Below are positions 47,490 to 50,726 of a stretch of DNA of 64,000 nt, piece after piece. The notes beneath the pieces were generated by a model. It was not told the origin of the DNA. It did not search any database and saw only the letters and a list, made by a program, of their open reading frames with translations. Both the position numbers and the translations under genes were made by a program. Position 1 is the first letter of the stretch. Every line of letters begins with the position of its first letter. The DNA is from Flavobacteriales bacterium (GTDB taxonomy: Bacteria; Bacteroidota; Bacteroidia; Flavobacteriales_D; Sanyastnellaceae). The stretch is taken from NCBI GenBank assembly GCA_029245065.1, contig JAQWQB010000105.1, positions 1-64,000 of the forward strand, read 5' to 3'.

Positions 47490-47517
47490 GGTCGAAGCAA
47501 GAAATATACATTGAGAA

Positions 47518-47540
47518 GGGCGCCTACAGGCGCCCTTTTT
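47518..47540 (+). terminator. Rho-independent terminator of sdhCAB
   Basis: GGGCGCC-TACA-GGCGCCC perfect 7-bp stem followed by TTTTT. Confidence 0.93.
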
Positions 47541-47545
47541 GCTGC

Positions 47546-47579
47546 TTGAACCCCAGCAATGTATTATTTCGTAACTTTG
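47546..47579 (+). promoter_or_regulatory. Promoter of the putative metal-uptake operon (TTG-N23-TAACTTTG)
   Basis: TTG at 47546-47548 and TAACTTTG at 47572-47579 fit Bacteroidota -33/-7 elements. The box ends 4 bases before ATG 47584, suggesting a leaderless first gene. Confidence 0.6.
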
Positions 47580-47583
47580 TAAC

Positions 47584-47973
47584 ATGCAGCGCATATTCGC
47601 AATAACAATCATGATTTGGTACGCAGTCCTTTCAATGGGCTTCCAAATCCATGTGCACTATTGTTGTGGGAATGTTGCTGGAATAGCCATCAATCAATTC
47701 GCTGTTGAAGAAGAGAACTGTTGTGGTTCACATCACGAAGGATGTTCTTTGGCCAATTCATGTTGCTCAAGCGACGATTTTTACTTGGCCTTAGAAGAAG
47801 AACACAAAACGCCTGGCGAATTAGTGATTCCTATGCCCGTTGCCATCCAATCGGTAGCGGTTATCCAAAAGAAATCCATCCAAAAAACAGCGCTCATCAA
47901 AGAAGAGGCTACTGTTTGGATTAATGGGCCACCGCTGTATCTCTGGCATAGCGCACGACTTCATTACGGCTGA
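47584..47973 (+). CDS. HYC_CC_PP family protein
   Basis: 129 residues. An N-terminal hydrophobic segment (FAITIMIWYAVLSMGF) acts as signal or anchor. The mature part has HVHYCCGNVAG near 22, ENCCGSHHEGC near 44, SCCSSDD near 58 and GPPLYLWHSARLHYG at the end; HYC, CC and PP name the family. Eight Cys and several His in about 45 residues strongly suggest soft-metal binding. It is predicted to lie in the periplasm. First gene of a three-gene unit with an HMA protein and a TonB receptor, which supports a part in copper or related metal handling; metal identity is inference. Confidence 0.87.
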   Translation: MQRIFAITIMIWYAVLSMGFQIHVHYCCGNVAGIAINQFAVEEENCCGSHHEGCSLANSCCSSDDFYLALEEEHKTPGELVIPMPVAIQSVAVIQKKSIQKTALIKEEATVWINGPPLYLWHSARLHYG

Positions 47974-48041
47974 AATTCAATGTTTTGGTATGGAATATTC
48001 CCTGCCCTTCAGTCTTAGTTTAAACATTGAAATTTCTCAAA

Positions 48042-48437
48042 ATGAAAAAGTTATTATTCCCAATTACCCTTATTTTCTTATTTCTAACATCGAACACATT
48101 TGCCCAAGATAAAGTGGTCGACGAGACCTTCTGGGTTGGCGGTGTTTGTGGCATGTGTGAAGATCGAATCGAAAAAGCACTTGATTTAAAGGGAATCAAA
48201 ATGGCCGATTATGATCACGAAAAGCAAGAATTGCATGTGGTTTATAAAACAACGAAGATCACTAGAAAGCAAATTGATCAGGCGTTGAATGCGGTAGGCC
48301 ATGACACGGCTACATCAAAAGCAACAGACGAACAGTACAATAACATGCACGGATGTTGCAAGTACAGAGACCCGAATGCGAAGTCTTGTGAGTCAGGTGA
48401 TGATCACGAAGACGAAGACCACGATGATGAGGACTAA
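48042..48437 (+). CDS. Periplasmic HMA-domain metal-binding protein with acidic-His tail
   Basis: 131 residues from ATG 48042 (signal peptide MKKLLFPITLIFLFLTSNTFA); a TTG five codons upstream is less likely. The HMA domain has GVCGMCEDRIEKAL with the CxxC metal site near 35, then a typical beta-alpha-beta pattern (MADYDHEKQELHVVYK). A second Cys/His cluster is MHGCCKYRDPNAKSC, and the protein ends in a run of Asp, Glu and His (GDDHEDEDHDDED). It probably carries Cu(I), Zn or another soft metal in the periplasm. It overlaps the receptor gene by 14 bases in another frame. Confidence 0.88.
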   Translation: MKKLLFPITLIFLFLTSNTFAQDKVVDETFWVGGVCGMCEDRIEKALDLKGIKMADYDHEKQELHVVYKTTKITRKQIDQALNAVGHDTATSKATDEQYNNMHGCCKYRDPNAKSCESGDDHEDEDHDDED

Positions 48438-50691
48438 GCTGCTACTTGCACTCAGTCTATTCCTACTCTGTTTTTCGGCACAATCTCAATCTTCCAAAAC
48501 CCCTAAATTCGTTAAGGGCAAGGTACTTGTTCCTCGTGGTGGAGGCCATGAAGAAAAGGACCCACTGGTAGGTGCTAATGTGTACTGGAAGGGAACACAA
48601 GTAGGAACCATGACAGACGCTTCTGGGTTTTATAAGCTGGAAACGGAGAATCATACAGACACCCTAGTGTTTTCTTTCATTGGCTATAAGACTGGCTATG
48701 TGCTCTGGAAAGGTCAAGAATGGGTAGAGGTTGTGCTCACTTCAGGAGAACTCTTGGAAGGAGCAGAAGTTATTGTAGATGCGGGTTCAACCAGAATGCA
48801 GATGCTAGACCCTCTTGGTTTTCAAACATTGGATCAGCGCGAACTGACCAAAGCGGCCTGCTGTAACTTGTCTGAGAGCTTTGAAACGAATGCCTCCATA
48901 GACGGTGCGTATACAGATGCGGTCACCGGCACGCGACAAATCAAAATGCTTGGTCTGGACGGGAAGTACGTTGATATGAACAAGGACAATATCCCAACTA
49001 TCCGTGGTCTAAGCACGGTTTTTGGTTTAGGGTATATTCCTGGTCCATGGATCAGACAAATCGCTATTTCCAAAGGAGTGGGGTCGGTGACTGCGGGCTA
49101 TGAGAGTATAACTGGACAAATCAATATTGCCATTAAAGATCCAGTTGAATCAGAACGCTACTACCTGAACTTTTATGGAAGCAACGGCGGAAGACTAGAG
49201 GCAAATGTACATACACGCCAAAATGTTGGAAGGAAATGGGCGACAAGTATCATGGCACATGCGAACATGAACAACCTCGAACAAGACAACAACAAAGACG
49301 GCTTCATGGATAATGCCTTGAAGGAAATGGTAGTGTTCAGAAATGAATGGAAATTCCAAGGAGACAGAGGAATTGAGGGAACATACCAGATTACTGCCAT
49401 GCAGAATACTATTCAGGCCGGTCAATTGAATTCCATCGATGCTTCTACCATAGAAGGTGGTCTTTGGACGTCAGATTATACCAGCACGCACATTGAAGGA
49501 GCGGCAAAAACAGGATATGTTTGGCCAAAATTCCCTCATCGTACGTTGGGTACTCAGTTTTCCGGAGAGTGGCATGACCAAGAAGCGAATTATGGAGAGC
49601 GTGTATATTCAGGACATCAACGCACCGCAAGGGCCAACATCTTGTATGTATCGTTGATCGGAAACACAGACCATAAATTTACGGTTGGAGGCAGTTTTCT
49701 TTATGACGAATACGATGAAACTCTCGACTCGTTGAGGTACACGAGAACGGAAGTTGTTCCAGGGATATATGGAGAATACACGTGGTCTAGGCTTGAACGT
49801 TTTACCTTGGTGGCGGGAATGCGATTAGATGACAACAGCTTGTACGGCTTGTTTTGGACGCCACGAGCTCATTTTCGCTACAGTTTCTCAGAGAATACTT
49901 CGTTCAAATTGATGGCAGGGAAAGGCTACCGCACGAGCAACGTCATCATGGAAAATGTAGGACAGCTCGCTTCTAGTCGAGCCTGGATTATTGAATCTGA
50001 GGAAGGGGTAGATGGTTTTGGATTGCAGCCAGAAGTAGCGTGGAATTTCGGTACGAATTTGATGCATAAATTCAGGTTGAACTACCGAGAAGCATCGGTT
50101 TCAATCGATTTTTACCGAACTGAGTTTGAAAACCAAATTGTGACGGATTTGGAGAATCCTCGTGAAGCAAGGTTCTACAATTTGGAAGGAAGCAGCTTTT
50201 CGAATAGTGCGCAAATCGAATTTGGCTGGAGCCCCGCAAGGCGATGGGATGTGAGATTGGCCTACCGATGGCTCCAAGTGCAGACAGATTATGACGAAGG
50301 CAGGTTGGACGTGCCGTTGGTATCAACTCACCGCGCCTTTGCCAATGGTTCGTATGAGACAAAGAAGAACAACAAAGGAGCCCAATGGCGCTTCGATGCT
50401 ACAGTTCAATGGGTAGGAGATGTAAGACTTCCCAATACGGAAGCAAACCCAGAGGAATACCAATTGAATGAAAGATCGGATGACTATTTCTTAGTGAGCG
50501 CCCAGATAACGCGTGCGTTCAATTCGAAATTCGAACTTTATATTGGAGGAGAGAACCTTCTGAACTACCGTCAGCCAAATGCAATTTTAGCTGCGGAAAA
50601 CCCAAATGGTGAATTTTTCGATGCATCCATGGTCTGGGCCCCGGTCTTTGGAGCCATGGCTTACGGAGGCATTCGGTGGAGTGTGAAATGA
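48424..50691 (+). CDS. TonB-dependent receptor, likely for a metal or metal complex
   Basis: 755 residues from ATG 48424 or 48427 (MRTKLLLALSLFLLCFSAQS signal). Carboxypeptidase-like domain (GANVYWKGTQVGTMTDASGF). The plug has LTKAACCNLSESFETNASID with an adjacent Cys pair, followed by the plug core ISKGVGSVTAGYESITGQIN. The barrel ends YGGIRWSVK. The CC-bearing plug, and its overlap with the HMA gene and linkage to HYC_CC_PP, suggest passage of a soft metal across the outer membrane into periplasmic carriers. That role is inference; the receptor family is certain. A bidirectional terminator follows. Confidence 0.9.
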   Translation: MMRTKLLLALSLFLLCFSAQSQSSKTPKFVKGKVLVPRGGGHEEKDPLVGANVYWKGTQVGTMTDASGFYKLETENHTDTLVFSFIGYKTGYVLWKGQEWVEVVLTSGELLEGAEVIVDAGSTRMQMLDPLGFQTLDQRELTKAACCNLSESFETNASIDGAYTDAVTGTRQIKMLGLDGKYVDMNKDNIPTIRGLSTVFGLGYIPGPWIRQIAISKGVGSVTAGYESITGQINIAIKDPVESERYYLNFYGSNGGRLEANVHTRQNVGRKWATSIMAHANMNNLEQDNNKDGFMDNALKEMVVFRNEWKFQGDRGIEGTYQITAMQNTIQAGQLNSIDASTIEGGLWTSDYTSTHIEGAAKTGYVWPKFPHRTLGTQFSGEWHDQEANYGERVYSGHQRTARANILYVSLIGNTDHKFTVGGSFLYDEYDETLDSLRYTRTEVVPGIYGEYTWSRLERFTLVAGMRLDDNSLYGLFWTPRAHFRYSFSENTSFKLMAGKGYRTSNVIMENVGQLASSRAWIIESEEGVDGFGLQPEVAWNFGTNLMHKFRLNYREASVSIDFYRTEFENQIVTDLENPREARFYNLEGSSFSNSAQIEFGWSPARRWDVRLAYRWLQVQTDYDEGRLDVPLVSTHRAFANGSYETKKNNKGAQWRFDATVQWVGDVRLPNTEANPEEYQLNERSDDYFLVSAQITRAFNSKFELYIGGENLLNYRQPNAILAAENPNGEFFDASMVWAPVFGAMAYGGIRWSVK

Positions 50692-50700
50692 TATGATTTG

Positions 50701-50726
50701 AAAGGGAGGCGAAAGCTTCCCTTTTT
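50701..50726. terminator. Bidirectional terminator between convergent genes
   Basis: AAAGGGAGGC-GAAA-GCTTCCCTTT stem of 10 bp with one G.T pair, T-run on the plus strand and A-run before it. It separates the TonB receptor gene from the beta-helix gene. Confidence 0.85.

Follow-up and report, generated by a model that had tools for sequence, protein, structure and literature searches.

CutF (PMC9973294) is the leader of the cutFOG operon of Rhodobacter capsulatus, and CruR is an uORF of the bfrG/crtA operon of Bordetella pertussis (PMC9426467, PMC12914433). Together they provide precedents for both senses of response. CutF-like proteins from Bacteroidota are listed in PMC9973294, which for its set as a whole mentions RND and TonB genes in the neighbourhood; this Bacteroidota set may overlap with the HYC_CC_PP (HYC) proteins considered here. 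A survey of RAPP/RGPP uORFs noted a gap in Bacteroidota (PMC12992588), which HYC would fill if it is indeed a leader. Copper leaders as a kind are known from Pseudomonadota (CutF/CruR), and what we add is HYC_CC_PP as a putative leader of this kind. HYC_CC_PP was named in no paper found by our literature search, and the literature searched described no outer-membrane copper import and no copper receptor of Bacteroidota. Nor did the papers searched contain a link of HYC_CC_PP to leaders, a stop-anchored hairpin of variable sequence, the use of one leader for import and export, or a receptor-HMA module.

The three-gene locus

The window, i.e., the whole stretch of 64,000 nt that was analysed, contains ORFs for HYC_CC_PP, a secreted HMA protein and a TonB-dependent receptor (Table 1). 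All three were found on the plus strand where an earlier note on this DNA had placed them, and the overlap of the last two that it described amounts to 11 bp, while HYC and HMA are separated by 68 nt. Since terminator-like hairpins are located before HYC and after the receptor gene, we take the three genes for one operon, which follows succinate-dehydrogenase-like genes. The upstream hairpin, which was not listed by the consensus scan, resembles an intrinsic terminator that would set the operon apart from the upstream genes. A scan of the region against Rfam matched no family. The promoter-like element resembles the Bacteroidota -7 consensus, TAnnTTTG. As it lies only a few bases 5′ of the HYC ATG (47572-47584), the transcript may be nearly leaderless.

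Table 1. Features of the locus (positions within the window).
Feature	Position	Strand	Basis and remarks
Intrinsic-terminator-like hairpin, AAGGGCGCC-TACA-GGCGCCCTT-TTTG	47516..47540	+	By eye; 3′ of sdhB-like gene
TAACTTTG, -7 promoter-like element	47572..47579	+	By eye; very close to HYC ATG
HYC_CC_PP, 129 aa, proposed leader ORF	47584..47973	+	ORF and NCBIfam NF047658 profile
RNA hairpin, HYC stop to HMA start	47972..48036	+	Fold of window and family-wide tests
Secreted HMA protein, 131 aa	48042..48437	+	PF00403; alignment of 49 homologues; AlphaFold2
TonB-dependent receptor, 754 aa	48427..50691	+	CarbopepD_reg_2 and TonB barrel profiles; model with low-confidence plug
Terminator-like hairpin 3′ of receptor gene	50704..50725	+	Consensus scan

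The HMA protein matches PF00403 with 33.6 bits (cut-off 24.8, E 5e-8) and carries the CxxC motif as CGMC, together with a GHD loop, the sequence GCCKYRD and an acidic/His tail, GDDHEDEDHDDED. This confirms the earlier description as an HMA protein with a D/E/H-rich tail. In the alignment C36, C39, G86, C105 and C106 are invariant, and H87 is conserved to at least 90%. The AlphaFold2 model has a mean pLDDT of 85.6; here the stretch carrying the second Cys pair is placed confidently within the fold. CopA and CopZ are the closest solved relatives. The NCBIfam model for the CopZ copper chaperone gave 28.8 bits, below its cut-off of 91; the N-terminus of the protein is export-like, and additional Cys residues are present.

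The receptor consists of a CarbopepD_reg_2 domain and a barrel (PF00593, 5e-20), which is also seen in the AlphaFold2 model, while the match to the Plug profile was weak and below its cut-off. The Cys-Cys pair that had been noticed in the plug is present: Cys145-Cys146 are part of the sequence AACCNLSESF, where the plug region begins, and are invariant in 20/20 receptors that were found by BLAST, i.e., without the motif as a key. We quote conservation from this set, since the pair was partly a search key for the 80 named receptor loci considered below. AlphaFold2 confidence around Cys145-146 is about 36-45, too low to place the pair. The motif is presumably another one than in OprC and MbnT. 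CrtA and OprC were not among the solved relatives retrieved with the receptor alignment and no such model matched in the profile search; MbnT was likewise not among the solved sequence relatives. A distant relative of the receptor (26% identity) is encoded in the same genome (G000:C87:3249-5207), without a scored HYC gene.

Conservation and rearrangement of the module

About 31 close relatives of the receptor (E below 1e-70) were found in 118 genomes of the phylum, and comparison of two tables placed a scored HYC gene beside about 20 of them. We then have the co-occurrence of the three families at the named loci: HMA is adjacent to or fused with the receptor at 79/80, and HYC is located upstream at 72/80. 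With these numbers the module is conserved and the families, as viewed from the receptor's side, do not occur apart in most genomes, the outcome that the earlier note had named as speaking against a common system. Of the eight loci that lack HYC, four offer hardly any sequence upstream; in L065 and L066 another Cys-rich ORF is found where HYC would be.

The order of the genes varies. HYC-HMA-receptor is the order in the window and HYC-receptor-HMA that in most Flavobacteriaceae, and HYC stays first. A single HMA-receptor chain comes after HYC or a substitute at around twelve loci, which are of Chitinophagaceae, Sphingobacteriaceae and Saprospiraceae type. Fusions of HMA and receptor were seen in L065, L066, L069, L082, L087, L089, L115, L120, L124, L131 and L136, and also in L039, L046, L047 and L048. 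Such fusions suggest a direct hand-over, and they make the transfer from receptor to chaperone testable. A gene for an HMA-MauE membrane protein lies between HYC and the receptor in L074, L081 and about ten further loci; this protein is a candidate for the inner-membrane partner of the module.

The metal

No gene in the window is copper-specific by a curated cut-off. Copper is nevertheless the likely metal by association, since genes for MbnP/MbnH, multicopper oxidase, CusA and CopA are found in or near some related operons. Two receptor operons (L092:1062-2893 and L107:7662-9504) have MbnP and MbnH-type di-haem genes between HYC and HMA. In L107 the E values are 6.8e-41 for MbnP and 1.3e-62 for the CCP_MauG/MbnH-type protein; both score below the NCBIfam equivalog cut-offs and are named at Pfam level, where MbnP passes the cut-off and MbnH is a CCP_MauG protein. 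In L073 a multicopper oxidase is encoded along with DUF3347 and an HMA-MauE membrane protein. Genes for a CopA-type ATPase and a copper nitrite reductase lie upstream in L136, and L071 faces a CusA-type (RND) pump. The uptake of a soft metal that the earlier note had suggested can thus be narrowed to copper through the neighbours of related operons, while uptake itself is suggested by the class of the receptor.

Import of a metal or metal complex other than copper (zinc, nickel, cobalt, silver or mercury species) is improbable. Several metals are handled by HMA domains and by CusA/CzcA pumps, and the P-type ATPase beside a CusA-type HYC gene in L008 scores best as Cd/Zn type; the copper nitrite reductase and the other neighbours mentioned above, and the solved relatives of HMA, argue against such a metal.

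HYC_CC_PP genes and their substitutes

The first ORF belongs to the HYC_CC_PP family (31.7 bits with NCBIfam NF047658, cut-off 28). It shows a hydrophobic, export-like N-terminus as judged by eye, followed by HYC, a single Cys, CC, and GPP 12 residues before the UGA stop. Within the family the four Cys residues are essentially invariant and PP is kept in 91/99 members. The distance from the last CC to PP is nearly constant (52-62 residues, mode 56), and PP usually stands 12 or 15 residues upstream of the stop. The sequence in between is very variable; the last residues (FLI, YG, YA) are kept. UGA is the stop codon of 38/63 HYC genes versus 127/1021 genes at the same loci (L061-L140). The genes ending with UGA mostly have the stop after Ile and PP 15 residues upstream; in the class whose last residue is Ala or Gly, most genes have a UAA stop and PP at a distance of 12 residues.

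By profile search HYC did not match DUF2946 (PF11162), the family of CruR and CutF, and membership in this family was therefore rejected. DUF2946 was found in 4/118 Bacteroidota genomes, in one of them above the cut-off. CruR-type peptides were taken to have RAPP or RGPP about three residues from the C-terminus; the PP of HYC lies further inside, as described, and is mostly not part of RAPP. HYC does share the features of the CutF type: it is a small Cys-rich ORF with an export-like N-terminus and a C-terminal PP, first in a metal operon, and a stem-loop in the gap covers the next start. In L142:1492-1866 (-) and L144:1492-1851 (-), both from Bacteroidota, small His/Cys ORFs with weak DUF2946 matches end with SRAPPFA or SRAPPLS and are possible candidates for RAPP arrest peptides.

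Away from the receptor, HYC genes are located on the same strand 5′ of genes for CusA-type pumps, HMA or other metal proteins, and in a replicate set all 40 HYC genes had a same-strand frame within 300 nt. CusA efflux operons that lack a receptor are also headed by HYC. Other small Cys-rich ORFs, ending with QPP plus three residues, replace HYC in L046:265-672, L047:4225-4641 (-), L060:656-997, L065:9067-9429 and L066:9129-9512. Pfam and NCBIfam gave no family for the scanned ones among these QPPK-type ORFs, and all five keep the hairpin from stop to start that is described below.

HYC had been proposed as partner or sensor of the uptake system. As it also heads CusA operons, a sole role as dedicated uptake partner was rejected. 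A partner is also not favoured because an unrelated-looking Cys-rich ORF can take its place and because it is followed by a stop-to-start hairpin of the regulatory-leader type. Of the overall reading of the locus, the conserved module is supported and a sensor fits, as a nascent peptide acting in cis, and the partner is less favoured.

A hairpin links the HYC stop to the next start

An inverted repeat that the earlier note did not contain joins the HYC stop to the HMA start. Its 5′ arm, GAAATTCAATGTTT (47972-47985), begins within the HYC stop codon, and its 3′ arm, AAACATTGAAATTTC (48022-48036), stops 5 nt short of the HMA ATG. The arms form 14 pairs with one bulge, and an energy value of -18.9 kcal/mol was calculated (z -2.05; 6/200 shuffles were as good), a moderate significance for this hairpin by itself. 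No T run follows the hairpin in the HYC-HMA gap, as seen from the sequence and the terminator scan, and an intrinsic terminator between the two genes was therefore rejected.

The repeat was noted in the window and the family was tested afterwards; in all statistics that follow the loci are related, so that the p values do not refer to independent events, and start codons were set by rule. Shuffled sequences fold less well than the junctions between the HYC stop and the next ATG (median z -3.04 for the junctions versus -0.43 for controls from the same loci, p 1.2e-19). A helix of at least 10 pairs links the stop and start regions in 49/63 junctions versus 19/220 controls (p 1e-26). The arms differ in sequence among loci yet remain complementary: the duplex of an arm with its own partner has -11.3 kcal/mol, versus -6.4 kcal/mol if arms are swapped between loci (0/10000 permutations). 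The pairing probability reaches 0.65 at the stop codon and peaks between there and +14; it is at background from -20 and beyond +27. The 3′ arm is found at the start codon, ending -4 to +14 nt from the start in most loci, and the gaps between HYC and the next gene are 50-140 nt long. The hairpin is anchored at the HYC stop codon and is kept despite sequence change.

Masking of the stop codon, in imitation of a ribosome placed there, frees the next start region (0.43 to 0.59), while masking of the PP codons does not. At CusA junctions the helix was present in 9/11 cases, the two misses probably being due to a wrong ATG. L061, the closest relative of the window, shows a weaker link between stop and start. 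A replicate with the most divergent HYC genes, fetched afterwards, showed the 10-bp link in 20/39, and about half were without it.

Proposed mechanism and alternatives

In our reading, to which we give a probability of about 0.6, the operon serves the acquisition of copper and its first ORF, HYC_CC_PP, is a leader that senses metal. HYC is probably a leader whose translation opens a hairpin that hides the start of the next gene. From the data above we infer copper, import, metal binding by Cys, ribosome arrest and the direction of the response as follows. The TonB receptor would carry copper, or a chelate of it, through the outer membrane. In the periplasm the copper would be taken over by HMA, which has CxxC, the Gly-His loop and the second Cys pair, as suggested by the fact that HMA and receptor are one chain in several lineages. 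HYC would mainly be a sensor in cis: the four invariant Cys of the exported nascent chain may bind copper, and the C-terminus, with PP 12-15 residues before the stop, may set how long the ribosome dwells at the stop codon. A ribosome at this stop would cover the 5′ arm and leave the next start free for translation of HMA and receptor; when it leaves, the hairpin would close over the start. The masking test (stop versus PP codons) predicts that the pause takes place at the stop codon. An arrest at PP like that in CruR would not open the hairpin, since this site differs from the ribosome position that does. It weighs against this reading that a single device found in front of uptake as well as efflux genes would have to respond in two directions: in the receptor operon the ribosome would presumably linger when copper is scarce, and before CusA, in the opposite sense, when copper is plentiful. 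If true, a leader role explains why HYC precedes both import and export genes.

We extend this to the phylum only tentatively, at somewhat less than even odds. HYC_CC_PP proteins may be copper-sensing nascent-peptide regulators throughout Bacteroidota, which pause at their own (mostly UGA) stop with PP in the exit tunnel, open the hairpin, and are tuned oppositely for import (receptor-HMA) and export (CusA), and the Cys-rich ORFs ending with QPPK may have taken over the same role.

A different, rather unlikely explanation is that HYC really is a copper-binding protein of the periplasm, either a chaperone or a store, with a hairpin that provides only ordinary translational coupling and keeps HYC and transporter in proportion. 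The export-like N-terminus, the four invariant Cys, the conserved ends and the constant position beside metal transporters fit this, and a hairpin by itself yields coupling without sensing. A periplasmic protein does not readily account for a very divergent middle combined with kept Cys-to-PP and PP-to-stop spacings and kept last residues, nor for its replacement by a different Cys-rich ORF ending with QPPK with the hairpin unchanged, nor for the same gene preceding import as well as export systems.

Considering that CruR of Bordetella works through Rho (PMC9426467) and that gaps of this length leave room for it, the leader could also act on transcription instead of translation of the next gene, through attenuation (Rho-dependent or intrinsic) in the gap behind HYC. 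We regard this as very improbable: the position of the 3′ arm at the start codon and the lack of a terminator T run in the junctions inspected fit better with occlusion of the start. That the repeat is a palindrome in the DNA bound by a regulatory protein, and not an RNA structure, is hardly credible. It is a near-perfect inverted repeat in the window, but its arms vary between loci and it is anchored at the HYC stop codon.

Comparison with known systems

CutF (PMC9973294) is, like HYC, a small exported protein with C-terminal prolines, first in its operon, with a copper motif of Cys residues, and the next start is hidden by a stem-loop in a short gap that is opened by translation in cis; the HYC gap also has a stem-loop. 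HYC differs from CutF in that it is unmatched by the DUF2946 model, has the Cys pattern HxC, C, CC, carries PP 12-15 residues from the end, and is followed by a hairpin whose arm begins at the stop codon. The next genes are HMA/receptor or CusA for HYC and CutO for CutF, and ribosome arrest is a putative step in HYC.

The operon of CruR, whose relatives were compared as described in the paper, is likewise a three-gene copper operon with a small Cys-containing first ORF, a TonB receptor and a third gene. A fixed spacing from the Cys motif to PP is common to CruR and HYC, and CruR relatives are located with MbnPH genes. CruR differs by its RAPP arrest, the action of Rho and a gap of 162 nt; in its operon, the receptor CrtA did not come up among relatives of the receptor described here, and the third gene is of PepSY_TM type and not HMA.

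The arrest peptides SecM, VemP and MifM sense protein export or membrane insertion rather than a metal, and the likeness is one of mechanism: in them, as proposed for HYC, a nascent chain on its way to export governs a hairpin that covers the next start. With OprC and MbnT the receptor shares the class of TonB receptors that is used for copper.
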